DNA of 64,000 nt from an uncultured Bacteroidales bacterium (GTDB lineage Bacteria > Bacteroidota > Bacteroidia > Bacteroidales > FEN-979): assembly GCA_903887775.1 (NCBI GenBank), contig CAISRB010000015.1, forward strand, positions 62,001 through 126,000, written 5' to 3'. The notes below the pieces were generated by a model. That model ran no database searches, was not told the DNA's origin, and was given only the letters and a program-made list of their open reading frames with translations. The translations under genes were made by a program, and so were the position numbers. Shown piece after piece: positions 10,561 through 30,356 of this stretch; the stretch's first letter is position 1, and every line of letters begins with the position of its first letter.

Positions 10561-11316
10561 TTATTTTATAGTGATATCAATAAAACTGTATGGAGGCCAG
10601 GGACCGGTCAGTATGAAATCAAGCTCCGGATACTGCTTTTTGAAACCTTCAACCACTTTTATCAATTCAGCTTTCTTGTTTTTATCAAGAAGAAAAACGG
10701 CATCAATGATATTTTTTTCAGCTCCTGTTTTTCTGAATTTGTCGATGGAATTCAGCCGGGCAAGGGTTCCTTTGATCTCTGCAATAACGGAATCAACGTA
10801 GGCCATAAGCAATTCCTCGAGCCGGTGCTCTTTAAGTTTTTGATTCACATAATCCAGGTATACCGAATGTTTAATTTCCGGCGCGGGTTTGTCTATGAGT
10901 TTGGCAGAAGCCGCTGATTTTGCTTTCAGACCTGCCCTTACTTTTTCGGAATCACAAAATATCTTTAACCCGAATTCGAATTTGTCTTCAACTTTCTCCA
11001 GGTTCCGTAAAATCTCGTTCATGTTTTTCCCGAGCATATCGGCAATTTCCTGTGTTGATCCCATGACAGAGCCAAACCTCATGGGAAGGAGGGTGAACTT
11101 TTGTGCCAGGGTTTCTATCAGACCGGCATATCCGATTGCATCAGTCTGGCTGGCATTTAAACCTTCACTGTTAATATTGCTTACTACGACCGAAACCTCA
11201 TTAAATGGAACAGAATACAAGGGCATACCTGAGGTTCCTTTCATGCCGGTTAAGAGTGAATTTAGCGTTCCGGGAGCGTCTTTTACGGATACTATTGCAT
11301 AGATCAATAATTTCAT
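10561..11316 (-). CDS. Gas vesicle protein GvpF/GvpL, copy 1
   Basis: A 251-residue GvpF/L family protein, a group that binds GvpA and takes part in vesicle nucleation. It shows the N-terminal strand LLIYAIVSV, the core LLPMRFGSVMGS and the C-terminal LTGPWPPYSFIDI. It overlaps the preceding GvpA-family gene by 4 bp (ATGA), so translation is coupled. It is one of five divergent paralogues in this cluster. It cannot be assigned to F or L by eye. Confidence 0.93.
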   Translation of the reverse strand: MKLLIYAIVSVKDAPGTLNSLLTGMKGTSGMPLYSVPFNEVSVVVSNINSEGLNASQTDAIGYAGLIETLAQKFTLLPMRFGSVMGSTQEIADMLGKNMNEILRNLEKVEDKFEFGLKIFCDSEKVRAGLKAKSAASAKLIDKPAPEIKHSVYLDYVNQKLKEHRLEELLMAYVDSVIAEIKGTLARLNSIDKFRKTGAEKNIIDAVFLLDKNKKAELIKVVEGFKKQYPELDFILTGPWPPYSFIDITIK

Positions 11317-11525
11317 GCCTTTTCAGATGTTATATATCTTCCGGACTTTAGCTTCTCCATCGTTTCAACTGAGCTCAGCATCAGTTTTACCCCCAGGTAA
11401 ATCAAATCAACATCAGCCACAGATATGACAATGTCCCCGGTGAGGATAACCCCTTTGTTCAGAACCCTGTCGAGAAGCTCAAGGATAGTAACATCTTTTG
11501 ACCTGTCGATTATATTATCGTGCAT
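11313..11525 (-). CDS. GvpA/GvpJ/GvpM-family minor gas vesicle protein
   Basis: A 70-residue paralogue of the major shell protein. The core TILELLDRVLNKGVIL, GDIVISVADVDLIYLGVKL and MLSSVETM aligns with the helix-strand-strand-helix of GvpA. The strand positions carry the J/M-type GDIVISVADVDL rather than the A-type [10 protein letters not shown]. It probably builds or nucleates the conical tip. Its length fits GvpM or GvpS better than GvpJ. It starts at the stop of the GvpF/L gene at 11525. Confidence 0.88.
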   Translation of the reverse strand: MHDNIIDRSKDVTILELLDRVLNKGVILTGDIVISVADVDLIYLGVKLMLSSVETMEKLKSGRYITSEKA

Positions 11526-12319
11526 TACAATTTCTCTTTAATGGAGATAAAGCTGAATGGCGGCCAGGGCCCGGTAACCTCAATGTCAAAACCGACATTC
11601 ACACACTTTTTTTTAAGAGAAATGATACTGGCATTAAAGTCATTGGCCTTTACTCTTTGTATCAGGAAAGCAGCATTAAGTATCATGGTATCCTCCCTTC
11701 CGGTAAGTTCTTTAGGAAGCAGGTTGTTCAGTGTAGTGGCGTCGCTCAGCTGTTTAATTTCATTATAGTACTCCTGCCCGTAGGTTTTCGTAAGCCGGTT
11801 CAGTTCGTTCTCTATGAGTTCGGATTTCTTTCTTCTTAATAAAAACGCTTTTCCCGGTGAACTGGCCATGATCTGATTTTCCAGATCAGCTGCTTCAGTG
11901 CTCAATTCATCAATCTGTTCAATGAGCACGTTACGGTTGTAATAAATTTTAATCCCCCATTCTTCTTTGCCCCCGATAAGTTCAAATTTCTCAATCAGTG
12001 AATCGTAATAATCCCTGATAAACTTCTCCAGGCTATCCTGTGAATTATAAATAGTGCCAAAATTGAACGGAATTACATTGTAATCTTCCATAAGCAGGCT
12101 GATTGTCCTGATATGCTCTCTTGCATTGGTATCAAGCCAGCCTAAATCGGACAGGTTTTTTTTAAGATTTTCCTCTGAAAATTCACTGTTCGGAACCATT
12201 TTGACGACAGTGAATATACCCCGGGTGAGGATACATCTCAAACCTTCAAAATCAGGGTGTTTACCAAGTTCCGGTTGTCGGTCCGAGATACAGTAAACAT
12301 ATATCAGTTCATTGATCAT
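11525..12319 (-). CDS. Gas vesicle protein GvpF/GvpL, copy 2
   Basis: A 264-residue GvpF/L family protein. It begins INELIYVYCISD, has the core VIPFNFGTIYNS and the C-terminal VTGPWPPFSFISI. Between them is a long charged helical segment (about residues 125-190) typical of the family's coiled-coil domain. The end is most like copy 1 (GPWPPYSF), so these two may be a recent duplication. It is 27 bp downstream of the GvpO-like gene. Confidence 0.93.
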   Translation of the reverse strand: MINELIYVYCISDRQPELGKHPDFEGLRCILTRGIFTVVKMVPNSEFSEENLKKNLSDLGWLDTNAREHIRTISLLMEDYNVIPFNFGTIYNSQDSLEKFIRDYYDSLIEKFELIGGKEEWGIKIYYNRNVLIEQIDELSTEAADLENQIMASSPGKAFLLRRKKSELIENELNRLTKTYGQEYYNEIKQLSDATTLNNLLPKELTGREDTMILNAAFLIQRVKANDFNASIISLKKKCVNVGFDIEVTGPWPPFSFISIKEKL

Positions 12320-13145: not shown

Positions 13146-13928
13146 TTAAATGTCTTTCGTGTTAATTACGAGATTGACAAAATTATAGGGTGGTAAGGTC
13201 CCTACATATTTGAATGTCATCAAATTCCCATATTTTTCGTCCAGGTTATTGACAGCCTTGTCGAATTCAGGTTCAACTATGTTCTTTATGAGGAAGGCAG
13301 CATTGAGAATCATCAGTTCTCCGAAGCTTTCATTGACCTTTACATCACTGGAGAATGGTTTTAAAAAGTCGAGGATAATATCTTTGTAGTTGCCGGTTTC
13401 CTTCTTAAGGGCTTCAGCTACCATTTCGCCGATTTTCATGCGCTGGTAATGTGTTTTATCGGCCGGCAGGTTCATGAGTTTCCCCTTCAGGTTTTTTATG
13501 TTTTCGTACTTTTCCACAATGCTTTCATACATTGGCGCTTCATGGGCAAGTACTTTGAGCCCCAGTTCTTTTTTGCCGTCCATTTTGATAAGGAGATCCA
13601 TGAATTTTTTGTACTCCTTCTCCAGGATCCTCAGGATGCCTGCATCATCATTATGTTCGGAAATGGTAGAAAATCTAACCGGAAGAACAGAGAATTGTTT
13701 CATCACCTCTTCGAGAACTTTTTCGTGGGTGGTCATGTTTACTCTCCGGGCTTCATATTGAATAATAGGCGAATTGCTTACGATGGCACTGATATCTTTA
13801 TAATTGATACCATATACCTCGTCGGCTCGTTTTCCTATCCCTATTGGTCCGAATTTTATAGGGCCGGCATGCCTGATGATGCCATAAATGTACTTTCCTT
13901 CTTTTGGAATTTCCTGCTCGTCGCTCAT
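13146..13928 (-). CDS. Gas vesicle protein GvpF/GvpL, copy 3
   Basis: A 260-residue GvpF/L protein. It begins KYIYGIIRHAGPIKFGPIGIG, has the core VLPVRFSTISEH and ends YVGTLPPYNFVNL. The first motif is the commonest bacterial form of the family and is shared with copy 4. It has 22 bp between it and copy 4 upstream. Confidence 0.94.
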   Translation of the reverse strand: MSDEQEIPKEGKYIYGIIRHAGPIKFGPIGIGKRADEVYGINYKDISAIVSNSPIIQYEARRVNMTTHEKVLEEVMKQFSVLPVRFSTISEHNDDAGILRILEKEYKKFMDLLIKMDGKKELGLKVLAHEAPMYESIVEKYENIKNLKGKLMNLPADKTHYQRMKIGEMVAEALKKETGNYKDIILDFLKPFSSDVKVNESFGELMILNAAFLIKNIVEPEFDKAVNNLDEKYGNLMTFKYVGTLPPYNFVNLVINTKDI

Positions 13929-13950: not shown

Positions 13951-14724
13951 TTATAATTCCCATTTTTCGGGAAAAATTTTCAGGTCGATAAAATTAAAGA
14001 TAGGCAACGGGGCTGTGTAAACAAAGTCGCTGCGATCCTTGTATTTGTTGCCAAGATCACTCATGATGTTATCAAATTCAACCTCCCTGCCGCTGTTTAC
14101 AAGGAATGCTGTATTCATAAACATTGCATCCCCGGTCGTTTTATTCAGTTTATATTCAAATACTGATTTACGAAATGCCTCAATGATATTTGCCGCCTCT
14201 TCAGCTTTCTTTTCGGCCAGAGCTTTCGTGACAAGATCTCCGGCTTCGGCAATTTTCAGGTTTATTTTTTCGGGGTTTTTCAGTTTTTCGATTTCGGCTC
14301 TCACTTTTCGAAGTTCAGCATGGTCTTTGTCGATTTCCTTGTATATCCCGGTCATATTTTTCCAGGTCCCTCTGACATTCAGCTCAACCTTGTTTTCAAA
14401 TTGCTTGAGCAATTCAATAAACTCGCTGTATCTCCGGTTCAGCAGGTTTCTTATCTCATCAGGAGTTGCCGCGATGGTACCAAACCTTATCGGTATCACA
14501 CTTCTGAACTCCTTCATCACTTCTTCGATCACTTTTTGATGAGCCAGCATGTTTTCGGGATTGACAACGAACCTGCTGAGCGGATGGTCACTTACCACCA
14601 TGCACAAACCATCAAAACCAATAGTGGAAACCAGGTCGCCGCGTCCCCCTACTCCGATAGGCCCCAGATTTATATCATAATTTGAGGCAATGATACAATA
14701 AATGTATTTTCCGTCGCGCTGCAT
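13951..14724 (-). CDS. Gas vesicle protein GvpF/GvpL, copy 4
   Basis: A 257-residue GvpF/L protein. The N-terminal GKYIYCIIASNYDINLGPIG, the core VIPIRFGTIAAT and the terminal YTAPLPIFNFIDL are all family hallmarks. It pairs most closely with copy 3. It is 1 bp downstream of the J-domain fusion gene. Confidence 0.94.
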   Translation of the reverse strand: MQRDGKYIYCIIASNYDINLGPIGVGGRGDLVSTIGFDGLCMVVSDHPLSRFVVNPENMLAHQKVIEEVMKEFRSVIPIRFGTIAATPDEIRNLLNRRYSEFIELLKQFENKVELNVRGTWKNMTGIYKEIDKDHAELRKVRAEIEKLKNPEKINLKIAEAGDLVTKALAEKKAEEAANIIEAFRKSVFEYKLNKTTGDAMFMNTAFLVNSGREVEFDNIMSDLGNKYKDRSDFVYTAPLPIFNFIDLKIFPEKWEL

Positions 14725-14725
14725 A

Positions 14726-15820
14726 TTATTCCTTTATTTTTACCAGAATCAGATGTTCAATCACCTTTTCCTTTACAAGGGAAAAAGAATCTTCCTTCGA
14801 AGATTGCCTCACTGCTGCTGAATAATCAAGCATCACATGGTAATCATTTTGAATCATGTTGAATTTTTCCGCATCAAAGTTGCCGTCACTGTTGTCGGGA
14901 TGGAATACTTTTGCTTTTTTCAGAAATGCTTTTTTAATTTCATTCTCAGAAGTCGTTTCATTCAACCCCAGTTCTTTTTTTGCCTGTTCCAGCTTCTCAG
15001 GGTTCAGTTCTTTAACTTCAAGGGTATAATAGCTGTAACATGGTAAAGGACCTACTAATTTAAAGTTCAATACACCGTTGTATTCGGCATCCAGCTGGTC
15101 AATTGCCTGTTCAAACTTTTTCTGTTTATTCCTGTTAAGAAGAAATGCCGAGTTAGTGATCATTTCATCATTCATTACCTCGTGGATCTTGATGTCGAGG
15201 CCATATGGCGATAACACGTCGAGGATTTTTAATTCAGTTGCTTTGTTTTTTTGATCTATTTTCTCCTTTAAAAATAACCCCATCTTGACCTGATCAATTT
15301 TGGTGATCACGCCATTGTCTTTCATAATATCTTTTTTAAGTTCCTTCACATCCTCAAGCTGAGCTATTCCTTTGAGTACATCGGCAAAATTTGCCCAGGT
15401 AACCACCATGTCGATTTCGGTCAGGTATTCGATTTTTTTCAACGTCTCAATAATTAAACCATAGCCGTTTGACAGGATTTTTATCACATCGTCCTTGGAA
15501 TCCACAATAGTGCCGAGTTTCATCGGGATAATCATCGTAAATCCCTTGTTCTGAAGTTCTTCAATCGTTTTTTGATGGTGAACAAGCAAATACCCCAGTG
15601 ATTCCCTGTCGAGATGTTCAATATGTGTACCATCACTTTCTGAAACTATCGCCGATATATTATTAAATGTTATGGCATAAACTCCTGAATTTTCAAGTAA
15701 TTGAAACTGAGTTGTTCCATAAAAATTCGGCACAACCCCGTAAATATATATTCTCTTTGCTGTGGTTCTTCCTACAGATTGACCGGGTGATTGAGTTGCT
15801 TTTTTCATTGTACTTTCCAT
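14726..15820 (-). CDS. GvpF/GvpL fused to a C-terminal J domain, copy 5
   Basis: A 364-residue fusion. Residues about 23-270 are a GvpF/L domain (IYIYGVVPNF, IIPMKLGTIVDS, LVGPLPCYSYYTL). Residues about 278-335 are a J domain: AKKELGLNETTSENEIKKAF, then the HPD triad at 307-309 and FNMIQNDYHVML. The HPD motif is what stimulates Hsp70 ATPase activity in DnaJ proteins. The protein should bring Hsp70 (DnaK) to GvpA or a nucleation complex. No DnaJ zinc finger or substrate domain is present, but one is encoded separately at 21679-21996. It has the weak SD GGATGG at normal distance. Confidence 0.9.
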   Translation of the reverse strand: MESTMKKATQSPGQSVGRTTAKRIYIYGVVPNFYGTTQFQLLENSGVYAITFNNISAIVSESDGTHIEHLDRESLGYLLVHHQKTIEELQNKGFTMIIPMKLGTIVDSKDDVIKILSNGYGLIIETLKKIEYLTEIDMVVTWANFADVLKGIAQLEDVKELKKDIMKDNGVITKIDQVKMGLFLKEKIDQKNKATELKILDVLSPYGLDIKIHEVMNDEMITNSAFLLNRNKQKKFEQAIDQLDAEYNGVLNFKLVGPLPCYSYYTLEVKELNPEKLEQAKKELGLNETTSENEIKKAFLKKAKVFHPDNSDGNFDAEKFNMIQNDYHVMLDYSAAVRQSSKEDSFSLVKEKVIEHLILVKIKE

Positions 15821-15823
15821 CCT

Positions 15824-17983
15824 TTATTTTTTCGTTGCGTTTTGTCTCAGCACAAGCCCTATTGCTTCTTCAAAATGATTCTCCTGGATGAGGATTTCGC
15901 CGGCCGGTTCAGAGGTCTTTCCACGATTTTGTTCGATCAGGCTGCGGATTGCGAGCATCGCAGCTTTGCGGCAGATGAATTCAATATCTGATCCTGTAAG
16001 GGTATCTGTTTTCTGGGCAAGCTTAGAAAGGTTTACTTTTTTGCCAAGTGGTTTATTCCGTGTATGGATATCGAATATTTTCTCCCTTGTTCTGACATCT
16101 GGTATTGGTAATTCAAATATCAGATCGAACCTGCCGCTTCTCAGCAAAGCGGGGTCAATCAGATCGATCCTGTTTGTTGCAGCCAGAACTATCACTCCTT
16201 TCAGGTCTTCAATACCGTCCATTTCTGTCAGGAACTGACCTATAACGCGCTCGATCACACCAGAACCTGAACTGTCGTTGTTGCGCCTGGGGGTGAGACT
16301 GTCTATTTCATCGAGGAACAAAATGCAGGGCGATGCCTGTTTTGCCATTCTGAAGAGTTCTCTTACACCTTTTTCCGATTCGCCTATGTAACGGCTAAGG
16401 ATCTGCGGGCCTTTGACAGAAATAAAGTTTACACCGCTTTCGCTTGCAAGGGCTTTTGCGAGATAAGTTTTGCCTGTACCCGGTTTACCGTGCAGGATAA
16501 TACCTTTAGGCGGGTTGGTGTCGGCTTTTTTGAACAGTTCAGCATATTTCAACGGCCATTCAACTGTTTCTTTCAAGGCTTCCTTGATTTCATCGAGGCC
16601 ACCGACATCATCCCATTTTACATCAGGCACTTCTACGAAAACCTCCCTGATGGCTGAAGGTTCTACTTCTTTCATGGCATCCTGGAAATTATCCATCGTC
16701 ACTTCCAGCGACATTAACAGTTCATATGGAATTTCGGCCATCTCGAAATCCACCTGGGGAAGTATCTTACGTAAAGCAGTCATGGCTGCTTCCCGGGCTA
16801 ATGCTTCGAGATCTGCGCCTACAAATCCATGGGTGATCTCAGCCAGTTTTTCAAGGTTTACATCGAGGGCCAGCGGAATGCCCCTGGTGTGTATGTGAAG
16901 AATTTCCAGCCTGCCTTTTTTATCCGGAATCGAAATTGAAATTTCACGGTCGAAGCGGCCGGGCCTTCTGAGCGCCGGATCAATGGAGTTGGGAATATTC
17001 GTCGCACCTATCACGATGACTTTACCACGTGATTCAAGTCCATCCATCAGTGACAACAGTTGGGCAACAACTCTTTTTTCGACCTGTTTTTCACCACCCA
17101 TATCCTCCCGCTTTGGTGCAATAGCATCAATTTCATCGATGAAAATGATGGCAGGAGCATGCTGTTGGGCCTCTTCAAAGATTTTCCTGATGCGCCCTTC
17201 ACTTTCTCCATAAAATTTCCCCATGATCTCGGGGCCGGATATGCTGATGAAATAAGCATCTGTTTCATGTGCCACGGCTCTGACGATGAGGGTTTTGCCG
17301 GTTCCCGGCGGGCCATAAAGAAAAACTCCCTTTGGTGGCTGAACCCCCAACCGTTCAAAGATCTCCGGATATTTTAACGGCAGCTCAATCATTTCCCTTA
17401 TCCGCTGGACCTGATTTTGAAGTCCCCCGATATCTTCATAGGAAACTTTGCTTTTCCGTTCTCCTTCCTGTTTTACCAGCTCAAGCTGAAATGTTGTAGT
17501 CGGGTGTATCAGCACGATGCCTTCAGGATTTACACCGGTCACGGTATAATCGACCGAGCGTGATCCAAACAGGTTGGCTCTGACTTTATCGCCTTTTGAC
17601 ACCGGGAGTCCATTGATAAGAGACCCGATATATTTTGCGTCATCGGTTTTAAATAATGAACCTGATTTTGTATCGGGTTTGAGCCTTATTTTTGCAGCCT
17701 GGCGGCAGGTCGTTTTAATGACCTTCACTTTTTCATCGATGCCAACCTGGGCATTTTCCCTTGTGATCCCGTCAATCTGTACAATACTTTTGTCCCTGTC
17801 ATCAGGATAACACGGCATTATTTTTACCGGTGTCAAACGTTTTCCTTCTATAACGATCACATCGCCACTCTCGAGACCCAGCAGCTTCATGTCCCTGGGA
17901 TCGATACGGGCGATAGCCCTTCCAACATCCTTAACAAGGGCTTCCTTTACCCTCAACACTATTTCATCTTTCGTTTTAGTCAT
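15824..17983 (-). CDS. CDC48/VCP-like two-ring AAA+ ATPase
   Basis: A 719-residue unfoldase-type ATPase. The N-domain covers about 1-175 (DPRDMKLLGLESGDVIVIEG double-psi barrel, then a four-stranded CDC48 domain 2). The D1 ring has Walker A GPPGTGKT at 224-231 and Walker B IIFIDEID at 279-286. The D2 ring has Walker A GKPGTGKT at 499-506 and Walker B ILFLDEID at 554-561. Both rings keep the SRH arginines (RRPGRFD, RSGRFD). The length is close to archaeal VAT and CDC48. It is 3 bp from the J-domain fusion, so it is part of the gvp operon. It probably extracts or remodels Gvp proteins or collapsed vesicles; this is inference. Confidence 0.95.
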   Translation of the reverse strand: MTKTKDEIVLRVKEALVKDVGRAIARIDPRDMKLLGLESGDVIVIEGKRLTPVKIMPCYPDDRDKSIVQIDGITRENAQVGIDEKVKVIKTTCRQAAKIRLKPDTKSGSLFKTDDAKYIGSLINGLPVSKGDKVRANLFGSRSVDYTVTGVNPEGIVLIHPTTTFQLELVKQEGERKSKVSYEDIGGLQNQVQRIREMIELPLKYPEIFERLGVQPPKGVFLYGPPGTGKTLIVRAVAHETDAYFISISGPEIMGKFYGESEGRIRKIFEEAQQHAPAIIFIDEIDAIAPKREDMGGEKQVEKRVVAQLLSLMDGLESRGKVIVIGATNIPNSIDPALRRPGRFDREISISIPDKKGRLEILHIHTRGIPLALDVNLEKLAEITHGFVGADLEALAREAAMTALRKILPQVDFEMAEIPYELLMSLEVTMDNFQDAMKEVEPSAIREVFVEVPDVKWDDVGGLDEIKEALKETVEWPLKYAELFKKADTNPPKGIILHGKPGTGKTYLAKALASESGVNFISVKGPQILSRYIGESEKGVRELFRMAKQASPCILFLDEIDSLTPRRNNDSSGSGVIERVIGQFLTEMDGIEDLKGVIVLAATNRIDLIDPALLRSGRFDLIFELPIPDVRTREKIFDIHTRNKPLGKKVNLSKLAQKTDTLTGSDIEFICRKAAMLAIRSLIEQNRGKTSEPAGEILIQENHFEEAIGLVLRQNATKK

Positions 17984-18029: not shown

Positions 18030-18983
18030 TTACGATTCATAAATTTCAGTGAACAAGACTTTCTTTATTTTGCCGAGGGATTCAAGTCCTTTGATTTCTT
18101 CTGCAAACATTGGCACTTCAACCTTGTTTAGATTGCCAAATGATTCACCTATCTCCTGCAAATAACGTAACTGGCCGGCTTTTCTCCGTTGGCAATAATC
18201 ACAGCCCCCGGATGTCATTACATTGTTTACAATAATCTGCCGTGCATAGATTTCCGATTTGAGAAGATCGGACAGTAACCTGCCGGTTTCCATGATCGCC
18301 ATGGACTCAGGTATGCATACCGGGATAAATTCACATCTGGCCGTATCTTTTAATATGTTTTCTATCCGTTTTACTGTCTTTTTCAGGCTCATCAAAAAAG
18401 TGTCCACTTCGTCCTGTTTATAGGATCCCGAAAAACTAGTCACCATATAACGGTATTTCCATCTCATCCGGGCAGCCACCTTTATCCATTCATCTAGTAA
18501 TTTCGGAGATGAGATCAGCCGTAAAGCATGCCCTGTGGGGGCTGTATCGACCACGTATTTTTCATATTTCCCTTCTTCAATGAAATCGATGATGGTTTTA
18601 AAACTCATAACCTCATCAATACCAGGTATCGACAAGGTTAACAGCTCGTCAATGTCGTCGTTGTCAAGGCTTGTGGAGGTTTCAAGAAGCTTTTTCAACT
18701 CGGCCTTGTGCTCCTCTTTAAATCCGGAAAGCGCTTTGTCAGCAACTACTTCGATGGCCCACAACTTATGTGTGCCATCGGCTTTGGTCACTTTAAAACC
18801 AATTTCCTGTCCGAGACAATCCGATATTGAATGGGCCGGATCGGTAGAGATGAGCAAAGTATTGTACCGATCGGCCAGCGAGAGGGCTGTCGCGATGGCA
18901 CAACTGGTTTTTCCAACACCGCCTTTTCCGCCGAAAATAATAAGTTTCAGGTCGTTGTTCTCTAAGCCCGTGAGTGCCATCAC
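18030..18983 (-). CDS. ArsA/Get3-like ATPase of the gas vesicle cluster
   Basis: A 317-residue deviant-Walker P-loop ATPase. It has the signature GGKGGVGKTS (18-27), switch I region STDPAHS, the switch II motif DTAPTGH, and a CDYC pair that in Get3 binds the dimer zinc. Get3 homologues shield hydrophobic helices of tail-anchored clients; arsenite-pump ArsA is double length. No arsenic genes are nearby. The setting in a gvp operon suggests a chaperone for the very hydrophobic GvpA-family proteins. It starts 1 bp after the Hsp20-like gene stop. Confidence 0.88.
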   Translation of the reverse strand: MMALTGLENNDLKLIIFGGKGGVGKTSCAIATALSLADRYNTLLISTDPAHSISDCLGQEIGFKVTKADGTHKLWAIEVVADKALSGFKEEHKAELKKLLETSTSLDNDDIDELLTLSIPGIDEVMSFKTIIDFIEEGKYEKYVVDTAPTGHALRLISSPKLLDEWIKVAARMRWKYRYMVTSFSGSYKQDEVDTFLMSLKKTVKRIENILKDTARCEFIPVCIPESMAIMETGRLLSDLLKSEIYARQIIVNNVMTSGGCDYCQRRKAGQLRYLQEIGESFGNLNKVEVPMFAEEIKGLESLGKIKKVLFTEIYES

Positions 18984-18984
18984 T

Positions 18985-19503
18985 TTATTTTTTTATCCTG
19001 ATCTCAAGGATGCCATTTGTAAATTTATGCCGTAAATTCTGTTTGACGGCCTTAACCGGCAACAGCATTTCTTTTCTGTAACTCCTGTTTTTACTGACCG
19101 CCGAAATTTCAAGGATATCCTGCTTCAGCTCGATTTTAATTTCATTTTCCTCAATACCCGGCATTTCAGCAATGATCACGAGTTCGTTCTTTTCATTAAA
19201 AAGGTCGGTAATAGGCTCTCTCTCTTCATCCACTTTCGGCCCTTCAGGTGTTTTTTTAATGTTCCCAAACGTTTCCACTTTTGGACTGCCTCCCCCCGCT
19301 GTGTTTATGGTAAATCCATAAACCCCTTTCATGCCTTTTTTAATATGATCAAAATTGATCTCGCCTTCTTTTTTTATTCCTCCGTTTTCCTCGAGTTTCC
19401 CGGCAAGGTCAACCAGTTTTTCGATGCCTTTAAATAGGCCTCCAAGTCCGAAAAGGTCAAAATCGGCTTCCTCCCTTTTCTCTTTTTTATTTTCTTTTTC
19501 CAT
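18985..19503 (-). CDS. Hsp20-like gas vesicle protein (GvpH-like)
   Basis: A 172-residue protein. Residues about 1-90 are a charged, partly helical region (FDLFGLGGLFKGIEKLVDLA). Residues 95-172 form an alpha-crystallin-like domain: PITDLFNEKNELVIIAEMPG, IKIELKQDILEI and the terminal LRHKFTNGILEIRIKK. This is the layout of GvpH, the small-heat-shock-like protein of gas vesicle clusters. It is predicted to keep GvpA soluble. It is coupled to the ArsA-like gene. Confidence 0.87.
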   Translation of the reverse strand: MEKENKKEKREEADFDLFGLGGLFKGIEKLVDLAGKLEENGGIKKEGEINFDHIKKGMKGVYGFTINTAGGGSPKVETFGNIKKTPEGPKVDEEREPITDLFNEKNELVIIAEMPGIEENEIKIELKQDILEISAVSKNRSYRKEMLLPVKAVKQNLRHKFTNGILEIRIKK

Positions 19504-19577: not shown

Positions 19578-19832
19578 TCAACAACTATCTTTTTCACAAC
19601 GTTTTCTCATTCTTACTCTCTCATAGCTGAGCATATTTCCCGAAGCATCTACACGGACCTCATAAATTCCAAGGAGATCGAGATTAGGCGATCCGGAAGG
19701 CTTTTCTGTGATTTCGATGGTAATGTGCCAAATTCCCTCATCTTTGATTATCCCAATTGCATTGGGGGAATTGAATCCGGTAAGTTGCACCAACTCATCC
19801 TTTGTAATTTCCACAAGATCTTTTATTTCCAT
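19578..19832 (-). CDS. gvpO: Gas vesicle protein GvpO
   Basis: An 84-residue GvpO. The pattern GIWHITIEITEKPSGSPNLD, then GIYEVRVDASGNMLSYERV matches the family (W-x-hydrophobic-x-hydrophobic-E, P-x-x-D/N-hydrophobic-L, Y-E-V-x-hydrophobic-D, Y-x-R). GvpO proteins are needed for vesicle assembly in haloarchaea, with effects on expression. It ends in two cysteines (CEKDSC). It is 25 bp downstream of the GvpJ gene. Confidence 0.88.
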   Translation of the reverse strand: MEIKDLVEITKDELVQLTGFNSPNAIGIIKDEGIWHITIEITEKPSGSPNLDLLGIYEVRVDASGNMLSYERVRMRKRCEKDSC

Positions 19833-20525: not shown

Positions 20526-21446
20526 CTATTTTGAATATTTTTCGATGAGTTCATCCACGATGATTTTCACCTTTTCCTGGTTGGTTTTTGAACCAATGCG
20601 GCTTGTTTCGGATGTGAGAATATCCTGGCAAATTTTCCGGAATATATCTTTTGATTTAATTGGTGTGGTTTTTAAGGTTGCCAGTGTTTTAGCAATCATG
20701 ATGGAACCGCGGATCGTAGGATCAAATTCGGTTTTACCCGATTCACGCAGACCCCTGACAATTTTTACTATAATTTCAGTATCTTTCAGCGAAAGGTCGG
20801 ATTTAGCTTTCGTGATTTTTAATTCGGTTTCGTAATCAAAATGGTCTAAGTCCATCGTGACCATCCTGTCGCGCAGGGCATCCTGGGTCCGGTTGACCCC
20901 AGCATATTCCTCAGGGTTTGATGTAAAGATTGCACGAAATTCGGGATGCACCTTCATATAGTAATCTTCTTCCTTTGCGGCAGATGTACTCAGCATTCTT
21001 TCCTGCAGAATAGGCAGAAGGATGTTGTTTGCTTCAGGGCGTGAACGGGTAAATTCATCATAGATCAGGGTAAAGCCGTTTTTAACTGCAATAGTCAAAC
21101 GGTTGTTTACCCATTGTTTGCTCATGTCCTCCTCATATTTATGCACTGAATGAATAAACTTATCGTCCAGTTTTTTGTATTTATAACCTTGTTCGCTTCC
21201 GATGAGATCGGAAGTTTTGTACTCTGCATCACCATGAATAATAACTACGGGCCTACCGATCTTGCTTGCAAGATGCATGGCAACAGTCGTTTTTCCGGTC
21301 CCTGACGGGCCCCTGAAATGTACCGGGAATCCTGCTTTTACATATGTAAGACCGCGGTTTGTAATATCTTTTATATAATCGGTTTCGACAAAATTGGACA
21401 TGGGCCTTAGCTCAAGTACAGTGTTCATTTCATTGTTGTCGTTCAT
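20526..21446 (-). CDS. gvpN: Gas vesicle protein GvpN (MoxR-type AAA+ ATPase)
   Basis: A 306-residue AAA+ ATPase. Walker A is GPSGTGKT (46-53), Walker B is LIYDEF, and the family segment HFDYETELKI follows the arginine finger region RTQDALRDRMV. GvpN and GvpC interact in other bacteria, and GvpN promotes vesicle growth to full width. The start MNDNNEMNTVLELRPMSNFV matches GvpN N-termini. It is mid-operon, upstream of gvpJ. Confidence 0.95.
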   Translation of the reverse strand: MNDNNEMNTVLELRPMSNFVETDYIKDITNRGLTYVKAGFPVHFRGPSGTGKTTVAMHLASKIGRPVVIIHGDAEYKTSDLIGSEQGYKYKKLDDKFIHSVHKYEEDMSKQWVNNRLTIAVKNGFTLIYDEFTRSRPEANNILLPILQERMLSTSAAKEEDYYMKVHPEFRAIFTSNPEEYAGVNRTQDALRDRMVTMDLDHFDYETELKITKAKSDLSLKDTEIIVKIVRGLRESGKTEFDPTIRGSIMIAKTLATLKTTPIKSKDIFRKICQDILTSETSRIGSKTNQEKVKIIVDELIEKYSK

Positions 21447-21678: not shown

Positions 21679-21996
21679 TTAATTTCCATAAAACCCTTTG
21701 CCTCCACAGCGGGTGCAGGGAAGTCCGTCAGTTGATTTGCCTGTTCCGTTGCACTGAAAACATATCGTTTGGCTCCCGCAGTTATAACGCCCCTTGCCTC
21801 CACACACGATGCAGGGAATCCTCGCTCCAAGCGGGTTCTTACCTGTCCCCGCGCAAAAAATACATTTTTTCAGTGGTTCCTCCAGTTCAACTTGTCCTGT
21901 GCCGTCACAAACCAGGCAATGTGCGATGGGAGAGAGTAAATCAAAGGGATCCTTGCCCGTGCCGCTACAGAATGCACATTTGATGATTTTTAACAT
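21679..21996 (-). CDS. DnaJ-type zinc-finger protein without J domain
   Basis: A 105-residue protein made almost wholly of six CxxCxGxG motifs: CAFCSGTG, CLVCDGTG, CIFCAGTG, CIVCGGKG, CFQCNGTG and CTRCGGKG. DnaJ has four such motifs forming two zinc sites that bind unfolded polypeptides. Six would give three sites. There is no J domain, G/F linker or C-terminal beta domain. With the J domain on the GvpF/L fusion (14726-15820) it may reconstitute DnaJ-like function in trans. It lies in the gvp operon. Confidence 0.88.
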   Translation of the reverse strand: MLKIIKCAFCSGTGKDPFDLLSPIAHCLVCDGTGQVELEEPLKKCIFCAGTGKNPLGARIPCIVCGGKGRYNCGSQTICFQCNGTGKSTDGLPCTRCGGKGFYGN

Positions 21997-22238: not shown

Positions 22239-23543
22239 TTATTTTACCAGCTTTGGCTTTGGGTAATAAATGTTCTCAATTTTCAATACCTTTCCTTCAT
22301 CCAGAAGGTTTTTAGCAATAAATCCAAGCTTCATCCGTGTTTCACCGAGGGGCTGCTCCATCTCCGAGATTTTTGCTCCCTTCGGATGCTTGTTAATGAA
22401 ATCCAGAACTTTTTCTTTCAGTGTCTTTGGCTCTTCCTGTATTAAAGCGAACTTTGATTCTTCTTTAACAGGAGCTTTCTTTTCTTCCTTCACTGAAATT
22501 TTCTTCTCTTCTTTAACCGGGGCAACTCTGATTGTTTCAACCAGGCTTTCCTTAACTGCTTCAACCGGAACTTCTTTCTTTGCTTCTTTTTTTACTTCCT
22601 TTTTGACTTCTTTTTTTACTTCCTTTTTTTCAACTTTCCTGATCACTTCCTTTGGCTTTGAGATGATGCCGGTTTTCCTGATCTGGGCCATGGCATTTTG
22701 CATCTTGCTCCATTCCGACGAAGCCTGAACCCTGTTTTGCAGTAAGTCGTCAAGCATCCCTGCTGTTGAATTCTTAATGGTTTTTACTTCAGTACGAATA
22801 CCTTTTATCGAATTGTGAATACTTTTCATTAAACCATTATAGTCACCCAGTCTTTCTGTTTCTCCATTGTCGAGATCTTTTCTCAGTTTCTGGGCGGTCT
22901 TTTGATTTTCTTTGCTGATTTCAGCTAACCTTTTCTGAAATCCGTTCAGCAACGACCTGGTGTATTCAACTCTTTCGGCCAGATTTTTGCCCAGCTCTGA
23001 CCTGAGTTCATCCGACATTTCCTGGTGTTCTTTCTCGAACCTGTCGAGCATGTTGTTCGTATTCTTAAAAATGTCTGAAACTTCATCATTGATATTTTTA
23101 ATATCAGCATTGATGTTTTTCATAAGGGAATCAAATTCCTTGATCCTTGTTTTTTCATTATGCATTCTGTCGGATCGGCCTTTCGCAAAGGATTTGTTCA
23201 GTTCTTTCGCCATTTGTGTCCTGTCGCCTGCGAATTCATTCATCATATTGAAAGTGGATGTTTGAATCTGAAGCACTTCCTTCTGGATAGAAGAGATCGT
23301 GCGATGGATGCCGCCCATTAAGTCCTTATAGGTATTCAGGCGGTCCTTTTCTCCCTTCGCAAGGCTTTTTCTTAAGGCAGATGCGTTGGCATTTATCATG
23401 TTGGCCATTTCCTGGTGATCCTTGCGGAAACCATCGAGGGTATTCTGTACATCATTTACAAGCTCTTCATTGGCCTTAATACGTTGTTTGAATGAAGCGA
23501 GTAACTCTTCACTCAAATTTCTCATTTCTGATCCTAGTCCCAT
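22239..23543 (-). CDS. Repeat coiled-coil protein with C-terminal winged helix, GvpC candidate
   Basis: A 434-residue protein. Residues 1-290 are continuous helix with four copies of a motif starting at 61, 119, 184 and 224: L-x-K/N-G-x-x-D/E-R-x-x-x-Y-x-x-L-M-x-x-I (LAKGEKDRLNTYKDLMGGI is copy 1). Residues about 303-365 are low-complexity Lys/Glu/Val (KKEVKKEVKKE). Residues 373-428 look like a winged helix (VLDFINKHPKGAKISEMEQP). GvpC proteins are repeat helices that bind the outer shell and are encoded next to gvpA, as here. The winged helix is not expected in GvpC, so the call is by analogy. Confidence 0.75.
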   Translation of the reverse strand: MGLGSEMRNLSEELLASFKQRIKANEELVNDVQNTLDGFRKDHQEMANMINANASALRKSLAKGEKDRLNTYKDLMGGIHRTISSIQKEVLQIQTSTFNMMNEFAGDRTQMAKELNKSFAKGRSDRMHNEKTRIKEFDSLMKNINADIKNINDEVSDIFKNTNNMLDRFEKEHQEMSDELRSELGKNLAERVEYTRSLLNGFQKRLAEISKENQKTAQKLRKDLDNGETERLGDYNGLMKSIHNSIKGIRTEVKTIKNSTAGMLDDLLQNRVQASSEWSKMQNAMAQIRKTGIISKPKEVIRKVEKKEVKKEVKKEVKKEAKKEVPVEAVKESLVETIRVAPVKEEKKISVKEEKKAPVKEESKFALIQEEPKTLKEKVLDFINKHPKGAKISEMEQPLGETRMKLGFIAKNLLDEGKVLKIENIYYPKPKLVK

Positions 23544-23550
23544 TGTTTTG

Positions 23551-23556
23551 TCTCCT
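23551..23556 (-). promoter_or_regulatory. Strong Shine-Dalgarno of the repeat coiled-coil gene
   Basis: AGGAGA lies 7 bp upstream of the ATG at 23543, within the string AAAATAGGAGA that also precedes gvpA. Confidence 0.7.
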
Positions 23557-23560
23557 ATTT

Positions 23561-24223
23561 TTAATTAATGTTTGGGTACCTGTGTTTATTATTCCACTTG
23601 AACACTTGTCCTATGGGGTTGATTTCATTTAATATCTGGTCTTTAACCTTTTTTATATCCTGTACCAGAATATGGTCGCCTTTTTTAAGTAAGTTCTCAA
23701 GGCAGTCCATCATTCTGTTTTGCATTTGCTGATAATCCAAAAATGCCTGCAATACTTTTTCCTTCCTCATTTCATGCAGTTTTGAGATCTGAGAAAGTTG
23801 TTCTTTTATAATAGAAATATTTTCGCAGTTGTCCTTTGAAGTAATGTCTTTGATTTCCAGCAGGCTGTTTTTAAGTGATTGAGCCGTCATTTTCTGATCT
23901 TCAATAAAAGTCAGGAACTGGTTTTCGGCTTCTTTTTCCTTTTTATCAAGGGTTTCAAGAATTCCAGACATCATTGCATAATAATCTTTTTTTCTCAGGG
24001 ACCCTTTTTTGGCCAGAGTTTCGCAAAGCCTGGAGTTTAAATCGTCCCTTTCCTTTTTAAGATCGTTAATGGAATTATGAACATTATCGAAGAGGGAATG
24101 GGATGATTCTGTAATATTTTCCGAGGATTGGAAGGCAGCTTGAATTTTTTGAATCCTCGATTCATAGGAGGTTATAATGTTGTCGAAAAAACCATCAATA
24201 TTGATTTGAGAGTGGGTTCTCAT
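23561..24223 (-). CDS. Coiled-coil protein related to the 22239-23543 gene
   Basis: A 220-residue helical protein, soluble and without a signal peptide. Residues 70-88 (LAKKGSLRKKDYYAMMSGI) match the repeat motif of the next gene, and a weaker LLKKG copy lies near 183. Long coiled-coil heptads fill the rest. It is the first gene after gvpA and 17 bp before the 434-residue protein. The two probably share a role, perhaps on the vesicle surface. Family unknown. Confidence 0.72.
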   Translation of the reverse strand: MRTHSQINIDGFFDNIITSYESRIQKIQAAFQSSENITESSHSLFDNVHNSINDLKKERDDLNSRLCETLAKKGSLRKKDYYAMMSGILETLDKKEKEAENQFLTFIEDQKMTAQSLKNSLLEIKDITSKDNCENISIIKEQLSQISKLHEMRKEKVLQAFLDYQQMQNRMMDCLENLLKKGDHILVQDIKKVKDQILNEINPIGQVFKWNNKHRYPNIN

Positions 24224-24344: not shown

Positions 24345-24551
24345 TTATGCGGCTTTTGCGGTTAATCCGATTGCTTCTGCATACTTCAGGTATGTTTCAA
24401 CAGAGGCAACGACTACTCTTGCTTCAATTGCAAGCAGTTCGATACCAACTAATGATACTCTTACCCATGCATCTACAACGACACCTTTGTCGAGGATACG
24501 GTCGATCACCTCTACGAGGCTGGATGAACCGATGGTCTTTTCTACTGCCAT
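24345..24551 (-). CDS. gvpA: Major gas vesicle structural protein GvpA
   Basis: A 68-residue shell protein that assembles into the ribbed, gas-filled wall. It shows the nearly invariant core [40 protein letters not shown] and [15 protein letters not shown]. These form the two helices and the strand-turn-strand of the rib. Length and ends are normal. It is the first gene of the minus-strand cluster, has a strong Shine-Dalgarno and sits behind a sigma-54-type promoter. The 121-bp gap after it could hold an attenuator that keeps gvpA transcript in excess; I see only a weak 6-bp stem at 24286-24308. Confidence 0.98.
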
Positions 24552-26284: not shown

Positions 26285-27676
26285 TTACTCTTCATCCTTA
26301 TCATTCGAGATATTGTATTTTTTCATTTTCCTGCTTAACGCGTCCCGGTGTATCCCAAGTGCATCAGAGGCTGCCTGCTGATTAAATCTGGACCTTTTAA
26401 GTGCTTTTTCTATCAGGCTGCGTTCATTAATTTTCAGGTTGAACGAATCTGTTTGGTCCTCCCGATTCGAATTTCGATGGATGGTGACAGGGAAGTCTTT
26501 TATTCCGAGCATGCTTCCTTTACATAAAATGATGGCCCTTTCAGTCATATTTCTCAATTCCCTGACATTGCCCGGGAAATCATATTTCAGGAGAGTGGTA
26601 AAGACCTCCCCGGCGACCCGGAGATTTGGTTTATTAAATCTCGTTGAATAGACTTCAACAAAATGGGCCAGCAGAGGCTTGATATCTTCAGGTCTTTCGC
26701 GGAGGGCAGGAATATGAATATGAAGGGTATTTAGCCGGTGAAGCAGGTCCAGCCTGAATTTCTTCTTCTCCACACCTTTATTAATATCATGGTTGGTTGC
26801 AGAAATGATCCTGAAATCTGTACGGATCTGGTTTGTATCGCCGACCCTGGTTATCACTTTCTCCTCAGTGGCGCGTAGAATCTTCGCCTGGAGGCTCAAC
26901 GGCATATCGGCGATTTCATCAAGAAACAAAGTGCCCTGGTCACATACTTCAAAGAAGCCCATTTTATCGGCAATGGCACCGGTAAAGGAACCCTTCTTAT
27001 GACCAAAGAATTCGCTTTCCAAAAGTGATTCCGTAATAGCGCTGCTGTTAACTGCACAAAAAATATGATCTTTCCGGGAGCTGGAATAATGAATTATTCT
27101 GGCTATGTTTTCTTTCCCGGTGCCGCTTTCACCGGTGATCAGCACATTAGCCTCGGGGTAATTGGCTGCAGTGATAGCTTGTTCAAATACCTCCAGAATC
27201 TGATGACTTACACCAATAAACTGCCGGTCGATCTTTTCTTCCAGTGTTTTTGAGATCAGTGAGTTCCTTTCTTCCATCCTCTTCAGTTTCCGGTGCAGCT
27301 GAAGGTATTTCTGGGTACGCTCAATGGCGATCTGAATGTCAATATACCTGAAAGGTTTACGTAAATAATCGAATGCACCGAGCCGCATGGCTTTGATTAC
27401 CGTATCCATGTCACCATGAGCCGAAATAATGATTACTTCCATGTTCGGGTACTGAGATTTAACCTCTTTCAGAATATCGAGGCCATTCACACCGGGCAAA
27501 CGAACGTCGAGAATCAGCAGGTCGATTTCATTTTTTTGCATAATCCTCTTCCCTTCCTCCGCCGTATTGGCCTCAAAAGATTCATAGTCTGAACCTTGAA
27601 AAAAACCACTCAATTCTTCCGTGAATTGCTTCTCATCATCAAGGATCAGGATTTTTATTTTATCTAATACAGCCAT
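26285..27676 (-). CDS. Sigma-54-dependent response regulator (NtrC family)
   Basis: A 463-residue transcription activator from the ATG at 27676. The receiver domain (1-120) has the acidic pair DDE and the phospho-acceptor Asp57 in LLILDVRLPG. The AAA+ domain has Walker A GESGTGKE, the sigma-54 contact loop as GSFTGA (usual form GAFTGA) and Walker B LFLDEIAD. A Fis-type HTH closes the protein (QQAASDALGIHRDALSRKMK). A longer frame to 27748 would overlap the kinase gene and lacks homology at its start. It forms a pair with the kinase and is the likely activator of the gvpA promoter. Confidence 0.93.
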   Translation of the reverse strand: MAVLDKIKILILDDEKQFTEELSGFFQGSDYESFEANTAEEGKRIMQKNEIDLLILDVRLPGVNGLDILKEVKSQYPNMEVIIISAHGDMDTVIKAMRLGAFDYLRKPFRYIDIQIAIERTQKYLQLHRKLKRMEERNSLISKTLEEKIDRQFIGVSHQILEVFEQAITAANYPEANVLITGESGTGKENIARIIHYSSSRKDHIFCAVNSSAITESLLESEFFGHKKGSFTGAIADKMGFFEVCDQGTLFLDEIADMPLSLQAKILRATEEKVITRVGDTNQIRTDFRIISATNHDINKGVEKKKFRLDLLHRLNTLHIHIPALRERPEDIKPLLAHFVEVYSTRFNKPNLRVAGEVFTTLLKYDFPGNVRELRNMTERAIILCKGSMLGIKDFPVTIHRNSNREDQTDSFNLKINERSLIEKALKRSRFNQQAASDALGIHRDALSRKMKKYNISNDKDEE

Positions 27677-27677
27677 T

Positions 27678-30356
27678 TTATTTTTTTGTTTGAATATCAA
27701 GAGCCAGTCTGATTTTCGTTCCATTCGGGCGTTCACTTGTGATATCAATGGTTCCGTCCATTTCCTTTATGATCTGATAACAAATCGATAATCCCAGTCC
27801 GGTCCCCTGTCCTTCATCTTTTGTCGTATAAAAAGGAAGCATTATATTATTGATATCGTCGTTGTTGATGCCAAAACCATTATCTGTCACTTCAACAATT
27901 ATCGAATGATCTTCCTTATAAGAGTTGATCCCGATGTTCATTTCAGAAAATTCAGGGAGTTTGTTTTTCTTCTCAAGAACAGCATCTTTGGCATTGACCA
28001 GCAGATTGACGATAACCTGCTCAAATTTATAAGTGTTACCAAATATCTGCGGAATTTGTTTACTTAGCTGAAGGTTCAGGTTTATACCGATGTGTTTAAA
28101 TTGTTCGGAAATCATTGAAACAGCATTTCTGATGCTTGAATTAATATCGAAGGCGGTTGGTACGTAATCGTCATGGCTTCTCGAAAACGCCCTGATGTGA
28201 TCTATTATATTTCTCATCCGGGTTATATTCTCGAAAATTTTATCGGATTTACTCTTAAGGAACTTGATATCGATAGTTTCTGTCCTGCTGGTCTCGAATA
28301 ACATTTTATCCATGACCATTGAAATAATATTTAAAGGCTGGTTGATTTCATGTGCAATACCTGATGCCATCTCTCCCAGGTTTGCCATACGGTCAGCATG
28401 GATCTGCTTTGCTTCCATTTTCTGGCGATGCGAAATATCGCGGATGATAATCATATATGATAAAGGTTCTCCATTCGGGTCCTGTATTAAAGTGACACTG
28501 ATTTCGGCAGCAAATAAAGATTGGTTTTTCTTTCTGATTTTTAATCCGATATTTTGCGCAAGACCTTCATTCATTGTCTTTTCAATTATTTCGGTGATCG
28601 TATTTTTTTCGTCAGATGTGACGAATCGGAAAAAATCTTTACCTACCAGGTCATCTCTGTTATCGGCGCCAAATAACTCAAGCCCGATCTCAGAGGCTTC
28701 AGTAATAATGCCTTTCATGTCGATTAATAAAATGCCATCGGGTGAAGCATTAAGCATTGTTTTGTATTTTTCTTCGCTTACTTTCATTGCCTGCTCTGCT
28801 ACCTTGCGTTCAGTGATGTTGCGGATAGTGTTCTGAATGCCAAGTACCATATCATTTACCCTGACCAGTTTAGCAGAGTGGGACACCCACCTTATTGCTC
28901 CCTGGTCATCAAGTATACGATATTCGAATTCCCGGAGATCCAGATCCTTTTGGAAGACTTGTTCCCAGACTGCCTGACACTTCTCTGCATCGTCGGGATA
29001 TATGATGTCGGGCATTTGTTTCCCCATAAATTTGTCGTTCGGATATCCTACAACATTTTCACACTGAGGGCTGACAAAATTAACAATGCCATTTGCATCT
29101 GTTATGATGGTTAGTTCGATGCTGTTATACACCACGGACCTGAACAATTCCTCACTTTTTTGCAGTGCGTCTTCGGATTGTCTGCGTTTCGTGATGTCGC
29201 TGAGGAAATTTAACGTGGCTGGTTTGCCTTGCCATACAATCAAAGCCGCATTGATTTCCACCCACTTGACAACACCATCACGGGTAACCATCCTGAAGGC
29301 ATACCGGGGGTGTACCACCTCGTTTGCGATCCGTCGCATATGATTATCAACAACCATAGCGCGATCATCGGGGTGGATGTATTGGGGAAATGGGCTATCA
29401 ATGAGGTCCTGTTCCGAATACCCTTCCAACAGGCTAACAGCCATATGATTGAGAAACTTGATCAGACCGTCTTGTGCGACTATAACTGATTCATGAGTGG
29501 TGTCTATCAGCAAGCGGTACTCCTTTTCGCTCTTCAGCAGCGATTCTTCCATCACTTTCTCCTCGGTGATATCTTTAGCAAAACCAAGAAATCGTGTTTC
29601 TGAAAGTCTCACAGCATCAACAGTCCACCAGCGTGCAGTTCCGTTTTTATGCCGAAACATCATATTTGCTTTTGATGCACCGGTTTTCACCACCTTTCTG
29701 AAGTGAGCCAGACCATCCTTTAGTGATTGTTGCGAAAGGATATCAGTAATCGACATAGTTAACAATTTCTCCTTCGAATATCCTGTTATCACGATTGCTG
29801 CTTCATTTACCTCGATGAATCTTCCGGTTTCATCTATAATAAAAACACCATCCGGGGCATTGTGAATGTAACTCCTGTATTTTGCCTCACTCTTTTTAAG
29901 GGCAGCATTTACCCTGATTAATTCATTGGCGGATTTTTTCAGCAGAGCTGCATCCTTGATTATAGTCTGTTTCTGAAGGGAAAGATCAATAAACACCTGT
30001 ATTTTATTCAGCAGGATATGGTTATTGACAGGTTTAACAATATAATCGACGGCCCCGAATTGATATCCTTCGACTACCTGCGCTTCAGTTACATGGCTGG
30101 CTGTCAGAAAAATGATGGGAACCTTTTCATCCTGTCGTTCTTCATTTATTTTCACTGCAAGTTCGTAGCCGCTCATACCCGGCATGCGAACGTCTATAAT
30201 TGCCACTGCCAGGTCAATCCCCCTGATTTTTTCAAGTGCCTCGTAACCGGAAAGAGCCTGTATGAGGTTTGCTTCCGTTTTCCCGAGTATGCTTTCAAGG
30301 AGAACCAGGTTTTCCTCCGAATCATCGACAATAAGCAGATTGGGCTGATGTTTCAT
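27678..30356 (-). CDS. Multi-PAS sensor histidine kinase with N-terminal receiver
   Basis: An 892-residue cytosolic kinase. An N-terminal receiver has Asp55 in VAIIDVRMPG. Four PAS domains follow; their starts include KYRSYIHNAPDGVFII, EYRLLIDTTHESVIVA, LFRSVVYNSIELTIIT and KYKTMLNASPDGILLI. The HisKA H-box is GIAHEINQPLN. The ATPase domain has VIVNLLVNAKDAV (N box), VTDNGFGI (G1) and GQGTGLGLSI (G2). There is no membrane segment, so the signal is internal, perhaps redox, oxygen or light through a PAS cofactor. Its stop is 1 bp before the regulator ATG. Confidence 0.93.
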   Translation of the reverse strand: MKHQPNLLIVDDSEENLVLLESILGKTEANLIQALSGYEALEKIRGIDLAVAIIDVRMPGMSGYELAVKINEERQDEKVPIIFLTASHVTEAQVVEGYQFGAVDYIVKPVNNHILLNKIQVFIDLSLQKQTIIKDAALLKKSANELIRVNAALKKSEAKYRSYIHNAPDGVFIIDETGRFIEVNEAAIVITGYSKEKLLTMSITDILSQQSLKDGLAHFRKVVKTGASKANMMFRHKNGTARWWTVDAVRLSETRFLGFAKDITEEKVMEESLLKSEKEYRLLIDTTHESVIVAQDGLIKFLNHMAVSLLEGYSEQDLIDSPFPQYIHPDDRAMVVDNHMRRIANEVVHPRYAFRMVTRDGVVKWVEINAALIVWQGKPATLNFLSDITKRRQSEDALQKSEELFRSVVYNSIELTIITDANGIVNFVSPQCENVVGYPNDKFMGKQMPDIIYPDDAEKCQAVWEQVFQKDLDLREFEYRILDDQGAIRWVSHSAKLVRVNDMVLGIQNTIRNITERKVAEQAMKVSEEKYKTMLNASPDGILLIDMKGIITEASEIGLELFGADNRDDLVGKDFFRFVTSDEKNTITEIIEKTMNEGLAQNIGLKIRKKNQSLFAAEISVTLIQDPNGEPLSYMIIIRDISHRQKMEAKQIHADRMANLGEMASGIAHEINQPLNIISMVMDKMLFETSRTETIDIKFLKSKSDKIFENITRMRNIIDHIRAFSRSHDDYVPTAFDINSSIRNAVSMISEQFKHIGINLNLQLSKQIPQIFGNTYKFEQVIVNLLVNAKDAVLEKKNKLPEFSEMNIGINSYKEDHSIIVEVTDNGFGINNDDINNIMLPFYTTKDEGQGTGLGLSICYQIIKEMDGTIDITSERPNGTKIRLALDIQTKK

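Follow-up and report, generated by a model that had tools for sequence, protein, structure and literature searches.

In haloarchaea, split-GFP data identify GvpF as the only accessory protein that binds GvpA, and GvpF may keep GvpA soluble prior to assembly (PMC7688916). The GvpF protein of Bacillus megaterium has been proposed to be a GvpA chaperone (PMC11445434). J proteins bring Hsp70 to chosen clients via their HPD motif (PMC8054193; PMC9596805), and this motif is essential to the stimulation of Hsp70 (PMC8054193). Hsc20/HscB is the dedicated J protein of the FeS scaffold and serves one client together with Hsp70 (PMC9596805). In yeast, J proteins promote the transfer of hydrophobic clients by Hsp70 to Sgt2 en route to Get3 (PMC8054193).

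We describe a protein, FL1J, that joins a GvpF/L domain and a J domain in one chain. It is encoded in the window, that is, the whole stretch of 64,000 nucleotides analyzed here, which comes from an uncultured Bacteroidales bacterium (genome of 3.83 Mb in 33 contigs, 98% complete). The gene and its parts are as follows:

14726..15820, minus strand: FL1J, GvpF/L protein with a C-terminal J domain, 364 amino acids (open reading frame, Pfam, AF2)
15029..15751, minus strand: GvpL_GvpF domain, residues 24–264 (Pfam PF06386, E 2e-41)
14825..14971, minus strand: DnaJ (J) domain, Pfam residues 284–332, folded unit about 274–340 (PF00226)
14894..14902, minus strand: HPD triad, residues 307–309
14729..14800, minus strand: conserved C-terminal tail, residues 341–364, last letters LILVKIKE (alignments)

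The frame on the plus strand across 14726–15820 is interrupted by stops. With the GvpF proteins of Anabaena (6l5d) and Microcystis (4qsg), FL1J shares the fold over approximately 245 residues, membership in PF06386, and the type of operon. However, the solved GvpF chains measure 237–244 residues, and proteins of the FL1J subfamily are extended by a J domain and mostly also by a conserved tail. The J domain of HscB is N-terminal. Unlike HscB, FL1J carries its J domain C-terminally on a gas-vesicle factor, and the two proteins are alike in the proposed sense of a J protein dedicated to one client. The helix II–HPD–helix III core is common to FL1J and the DnaJ and CbpA proteins of Escherichia coli, but FL1J is without a matched zinc finger or DnaJ C-terminal domain. 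As in the yeast GET system (J protein, Hsp70, Sgt2, and Get3; PMC8054193), a J protein is associated with a Get3-like ATPase, here a single-domain protein encoded in the same operon. Yeast GET acts on small hydrophobic clients bound for the membrane, whereas the target here would be a protein shell.

Domain Architecture and Predicted Fold of FL1J

Both domains score above their curated Pfam cut-offs. The GvpL_GvpF match reaches 143.1 bits (cut-off 23.6) and covers positions 2–243 of the 245 in the profile, and the DnaJ match reaches 38.0 bits (cut-off 27.8; E 1.7e-9). The best GvpF/L model in NCBIfam is GvpFCyan at 69.3 bits, far under its cut-off of 350, and the GvpL model is unmatched. A fusion of a GvpF/L domain to a J domain with HPD at residues 307–309 had been proposed in the initial annotation of this DNA. 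The profile matches at residues 24–264 and 284–332 bear this out, and in the AF2 models the HPD loop is predicted to lie between helices II and III of a J fold.

The full-length AF2 model, built on 23 sequences, has a mean pLDDT of 87.9 and places helices at residues 274–284, 292–306, and 317–340, with the HPD loop between the last two. In Foldseek searches its body matches the GvpF crystal structures 6l5d and 4qsg with E values from 4e-14 to 2.5e-13 (6l5d_B: E 4e-14, TMt 0.76), and J domains appear in lower rows with probability 1.00 and E values of at least 0.07. The C-terminal 92 residues were also folded in isolation, on 20 sequences. Among the best 50 of 98 Foldseek matches to this model, approximately 40 are J-domain proteins by title, including two (ERdj5) that we take to be J proteins. 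The E values of the isolated C-terminus begin at 0.035 and none is below 0.001, because the J domain is small. The J domain 5nro_B, which was solved bound to DnaK, superposes with an rmsd of 1.7 over 52 columns (probability 0.98, E 0.61) and also matches FL1J by sequence (E 2.6e-6). In the PDB sequence search, the closest matches to the J part are E. coli DnaJ structures, with E values from 1e-6 to 3e-6.

Some positions in helix II and in the loop of the FL1J J domain depart from E. coli DnaJ, and helix IV is unrecognizable. Neither a zinc finger nor a DnaJ C-terminal domain has a Pfam match in FL1J at E 0.01, and FL1J is therefore assigned to class C. A strand at residues 358–363 is present in the full-length model and absent from the model of the C-terminus alone, from which we infer that the conserved tail would fold back and pack against the GvpF/L body. 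The tail motif is missing from the Octadecabacter member described below. Judged by its letters alone, the tail might be taken for a peptide that binds DnaK or for an IXI motif that binds Hsp20, neither of which we claim.

The Gas-Vesicle Cluster

FL1J belongs to a gas-vesicle cluster that forms a long run of minus-strand genes from 24551 down to approximately 9643 and encodes GvpN, GvpO, Hsp20, a Get3/ArsA-type ATPase, a CDC48-type ATPase, and five GvpF/L proteins. In the order of transcription, its nameable genes besides FL1J are:

24345..24551, minus strand: GvpA-like shell protein, first gene of the cluster (named from its sequence, with no profile; kin head related clusters)
20526..21446, minus strand: GvpN AAA ATPase (TIGR02640, 346 bits)
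19578..19832, minus strand: GvpO (Pfam PF05800, 38.9 bits)
18985..19503, minus strand: Hsp20 family protein (Pfam PF00011, 29.1 bits)
18030..18983, minus strand: Get3/ArsA-type ATPase, single-domain, 317 amino acids, with CxxC (TIGR00345, 248 bits; PDB matches to Get3 and ArsA)
15824..17983, minus strand: CDC48-type AAA ATPase, directly upstream of FL1J (TIGR01243, 928 bits)
13951..14724, minus strand: GvpF/L copy 2 (FL2), without J domain (Pfam)
13146..13928, minus strand: GvpF/L copy 3 (FL3), without J domain (Pfam)
11525..12319, minus strand: GvpF/L copy 4 (FL4), without J domain (Pfam; best NCBIfam match GvpL)
10561..11316, minus strand: GvpF/L copy 5 (FL5), without J domain (Pfam; best NCBIfam match GvpL)

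The gap between cdc48 and FL1J is three bases, and the end of FL1J lies one base from the next GvpF/L gene. FL2–FL5 are 251–264 amino acids long with GvpL_GvpF as their sole Pfam match, and a search of the genome finds five F/L proteins. FL1J is thus the only copy with a J extension, as had been noted from the sequence. In NCBIfam, copies 1–3 are closest to the cyanobacterial GvpF model and copies 4 and 5 to the GvpL model, all under the curated cut-offs. The genome encodes one full-length DnaK, with two further HSP70 matches that are short and weak, and three J proteins besides FL1J. Thus, the partner of FL1J would be the general DnaK.

Several other genes in and around the cluster merit description. 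Two coiled-coil-like proteins (22239–24223, minus strand) follow the GvpA-like gene and have no Pfam match above cut-off. Their position is kept in many related clusters, and they are possible counterparts of GvpC. A sigma-54-type response regulator and a PAS-rich sensor kinase, as judged by sequence, adjoin the cluster (26285–30356, minus strand) and could possibly regulate it. A small protein with repeated CXXCXGXG motifs (21679–21996, minus strand) resembles the zinc finger of DnaJ as a separate protein (PF00684, scoring at the cut-off) and occurs in many, though not all, J-type clusters. We considered a split DnaJ, in which this protein supplies the zinc finger that FL1J lacks, and dropped it as a general claim. 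The green sulfur clusters L085–L089 and L101 showed no such protein, nor did L083, L114, and L115, and L084 has none as a gvp gene. The zinc protein is therefore not tied to the J fusion.

The place of FL1J beside cdc48 is fixed in Bacteroidota. Across 42 fusion loci, which encode 41 distinct full-length or nearly full-length proteins (one is shared by two genomes), cdc48 is the nearest nameable upstream gene at 37, of which 35 follow from a distance rule and two, L087 and L116, from gene order (the gap in L116 is wider). Among the other five, L020/L100 begins at a contig end and is not judgeable, and L096, L110, L124, and L131 show no cdc48. Genes for Hsp20 and the Get3/ArsA-type ATPase lie upstream of cdc48 at 28 loci, the window included, and at most of the remaining loci the available stretch is too short to reach them. 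In the J-type clusters that reach that far, the Get3/ArsA-type ATPase is a single-domain protein (open frames of 312–357), whereas a survey describes gvp-linked ArsA as a two-domain protein of approximately 600 amino acids (PMC2963123). The J-less cluster L093 encodes a 634-amino-acid ArsA of the two-domain type. A zinc-type Get3 is not a universal trait of these clusters: by an eye count in which the FL1J-less L120 is included and L093, L125, and the fragment at L085 are not, CxxC is present in 16 of 26 Get3-like open reading frames.

Distribution of the Fusion

The initial annotation treated the J fusion as peculiar to one protein. Instead, FL1J represents a conserved subfamily found in Bacteroidales, in green sulfur bacteria, in another class of Bacteroidota, and on one Octadecabacter plasmid. 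A homolog with both domains is present in 15 of 61 genomes (the source genome and 60 relatives). The fusions of the relatives are 47–76% identical to FL1J, and the copy in G004 is cut off past HPD, where its contig stops. When genomes were drawn evenly from the order, GvpF/L was found in 14 of 393, and 12 of these 14 carry a J-fused copy with HPD. The exceptions are G487, with two F/L copies only, and G049, whose cluster is without copies 1 and 2. In the G049 cluster (L120; genome 79% complete), hsp20, arsA, and cdc48 are followed directly by GvpF/L copy 3, and FL1J and FL2 were not found there. FL1J may be dispensable in this genome, unless the assembly is at fault.

An even draw from the phylum contained GvpF/L in 57 of 395 genomes. 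By sequence, at least 18 of these 57 hold an intact J-fused copy, and G120 holds one with a decayed J part. There is no J fusion in the stretches read of 11 further genomes (L090–L095, L097–L099, L102, L125, and L126, with L091 and L092 from one genome), and the remaining 27 lie outside that reading. The FMO protein, which is typical of green sulfur bacteria, was found in 10 of 16 phylum-sample genomes searched. Six of these ten carry an intact J fusion (G135, G143, G104, G225, G205, and G147), G120 has the decayed copy, and G139, G197, and G340 are without a J-fused copy in the stretches read. FMO had no match in the J-fused genomes G351 and G079. From the class to which G079 belongs, 294 genomes were drawn, and five of them carry a J-fused copy (G079, G887, G927, G849, and G966). 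In all, 94 genomes of this class match, most of them over the J part only, and these J-only matches look like ordinary DnaJ proteins. A scan of named genomes, by a method that reaches close relatives only, yielded 18 loci. Nine are fusions, all titled Bacteroidales or Bacteroidetes, and nine match in the J domain only. The same J-fused protein is encoded at L044 (uncultured Bacteroidales bacterium) and in G002, a genome of the same genus as the source genome.

The search outside Bacteroidota was thin and comprised plasmids and three genomes, with GvpF/L in none of the three. Six plasmid records match, one of them over at least 80% of the query. This is the complete plasmid pOA238_160 of Octadecabacter arcticus (locus L110), whose protein WP_015497776.1 is annotated simply as a GvpL/GvpF family gas vesicle protein. 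Its J-fused gvp cluster (6849–18216 of L110) lies between integrase and transposase genes, which suggests that the cluster is mobile. The members in the wider samples and in Octadecabacter rule out a fusion particular to the source genome or to Bacteroidales. Many gvp clusters are without the J fusion, and therefore recruitment of Hsp70 by fusion is not a general need.

Four loci of the phylum sample have long frames of 581–1354 amino acids with GvpF/L towards or at the C-terminal end (L097, 4153–6297; L098, 1855–5919; L099, 3452–5197; L102, 3984–6653). These frames have no second Pfam match at E 0.01.

Ancestry, Conservation, and Apparent Decay of the J Domain

We built two trees from GvpF/L domains. 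In the tree of 86 domains with the J part cut off, the decayed L096 joins the 14 J-fused rows in a single clade (100/96), and Octadecabacter falls inside it. The second tree has 63 rows and takes in more distant loci; its 12 J-fused and two decayed rows again form one clade (97/79) that includes the divergent L131, and the inner fork that leaves out L131 receives 99/92. In both trees the J-fused clade groups with FL2 and FL3, apart from FL4 and FL5. That the J-fused copies form one clade is most simply explained by one old fusion, and the J domain would thus have been gained once, long ago.

An intact HPD triad is retained by 48 of the 50 distinct members (56 of 58 open reading frame pieces, which become 47 of 49 after removal of nine repeat pieces, plus L131). 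In an alignment of 23 fusions with identities down to 31% relative to the window protein, HPD is unvaried, as are other columns including L284, A298, and F320; conservation does not extend to the loop that follows HPD. Pfam was run on 22 family members, and its DnaJ cut-off is passed by 20 of them, with scores from 28.0 bits (L085 and the Octadecabacter protein of L110, barely over the 27.8 required) to 51.4 bits (L114). A small custom J model missed L113, L128, and L130, all three of which are detected by Pfam DnaJ. The two failures, L096 (no match) and L124 (16.1 bits), are the two members without HPD.

Both of these members look, from their sequences, like decaying copies. L096 is a truncated copy with YPD in place of HPD, and its genome has no other F/L of near-full length. 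L124 (G033:C109) has LPE, lies beside broken-up coiled-coil genes with no second F/L on the stretch, and comes from a genome that also carries the HPD-bearing copy L009. Its J frame is still open and not clearly relaxed (pN/pS of 0.33 and 0.31 against L008 and L009). Over 13 pairs, pN/pS is 0.15–0.42 in the J part and 0.13–0.39 in the F/L part and is higher in the J part in 6 of 13, values to be read with synonymous change near saturation in many pairs, with rows shared between pairs, and with a 14th, near-identical pair uninformative. These ratios indicate that the J part is constrained to the same order as the GvpF/L part.

Proposed Function of FL1J

The initial annotation held that DnaK is brought directly to the vesicle nucleation complex. 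Given that the J domain is real, old, and selected with its HPD, by far the most probable explanation of its presence is an Hsp70 partner, and this part of the claim gains weight. GvpA as a possible client gains indirect support from the grouping of FL1J with FL2 and FL3, apart from the GvpL-like FL4 and FL5, and from the part that GvpF plays with GvpA in other organisms. Nucleation as the step served is favored over neither the handling of soluble GvpA nor quality control, and the genes beside FL1J (cdc48, arsA, and hsp20) suggest protein handling no less than nucleation. Since GvpF binds GvpA in haloarchaea and J domains recruit Hsp70, the most fitting view of FL1J is that of a class C J protein dedicated to a shell-type client. 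We therefore propose, with a probability of roughly 0.58, that a GvpF-type client-binding assembly factor has turned into a dedicated class C J protein that loads a shell-type client onto DnaK.

Under this proposal the GvpF/L body of FL1J would bind a hydrophobic shell-type protein, either GvpA or its relatives GvpJ and GvpM, before assembly. The J domain, probably kept near the body by the conserved C-terminal strand, would dock on DnaK and trigger ATP hydrolysis, which would load the client onto DnaK. DnaK would then hold the client soluble until its release, either to the growing vesicle or to the other ATPases of the operon. The binding and stimulation of DnaK, the identity of the client, the step served, and the function of the tail are what we infer here. 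The mechanism seems likely for FL1J, in which a gas-vesicle factor supplies the client-binding part of a J-domain protein.

FL1J might instead act in quality control, with CDC48 and Hsp20, by bringing DnaK to misassembled or aggregated shell protein for its disaggregation or removal. CDC48-type ATPases are unfoldases, and the adjoining cdc48 at 37 of 42 loci, together with the hsp20–arsA–cdc48 order at most loci that reach that far, agrees with such a role. Nevertheless, the J-fused loci L110 and L131 show no cdc48 (the L131 contig measures 4.8 kb), and GvpF probably binds GvpA at an early stage, ahead of its entry into the wall (PMC7688916), and on balance we regard this role as unlikely. The J fold could also have become a structural adaptor or dimerization module in the vesicle complex that does no work with DnaK. 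J-like modules without Hsp70 work exist, and both the unconserved loop after HPD and the open J part of L124 despite its loss of HPD are compatible with one here. But HPD, whose known role is contact with Hsp70, persists in nearly all members even at 31% identity, and its losses are confined to two decayed-looking copies. We accordingly give the adaptor little credence. That a sequencing error joined adjacent genes, or that HPD arose by chance, has next to no probability. Such an artifact is refuted by the same architecture at 42 loci in many assemblies, by the complete Octadecabacter plasmid, and by the single clade that the fusions form.

An extension of the proposed loading of DnaK by FL1J is a relay for a protein shell resembling the GET pathway. 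Shell protein would pass from FL1J to DnaK and on to the Get3-like ATPase, and CDC48 and GvpN would power its insertion or proofreading. The J protein has a Get3-like ATPase and CDC48 as neighbors, and this setting, taken with the J-promoted handover in yeast, permits such a reading, which we hold to be improbable. If it were true, gas vesicles in Bacteroidota and in green sulfur bacteria would grow by a handover from Hsp70 to Get3 like that of tail-anchored membrane proteins.

Significance

Among the matches listed in searches of the titles and abstracts of open-licence literature, a scope that leaves subscription papers and preprints outside, none joins GvpF/L with a J domain and none links gas vesicles with Get3. 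By term search, DnaJ is absent from the main text of a paper on gas-vacuolate green sulfur genomes that describes the gvp cluster (PMC10158934), and DnaK/Hsp70 is unnamed in that of a recent systematic study of Gvp interactions (PMC11445434). FL1J offers a natural part for the production of gas vesicles in other hosts. There, gas vesicles serve as acoustic reporters. Because the J domain sits inside a GvpF-type factor and has been kept across lineages, a role of Hsp70 can be tested with a single point mutation. Our findings suggest that Hsp70 takes part in building gas vesicles and bear on the means by which GvpA, a very hydrophobic protein, is kept soluble in the cell and fed into the shell.
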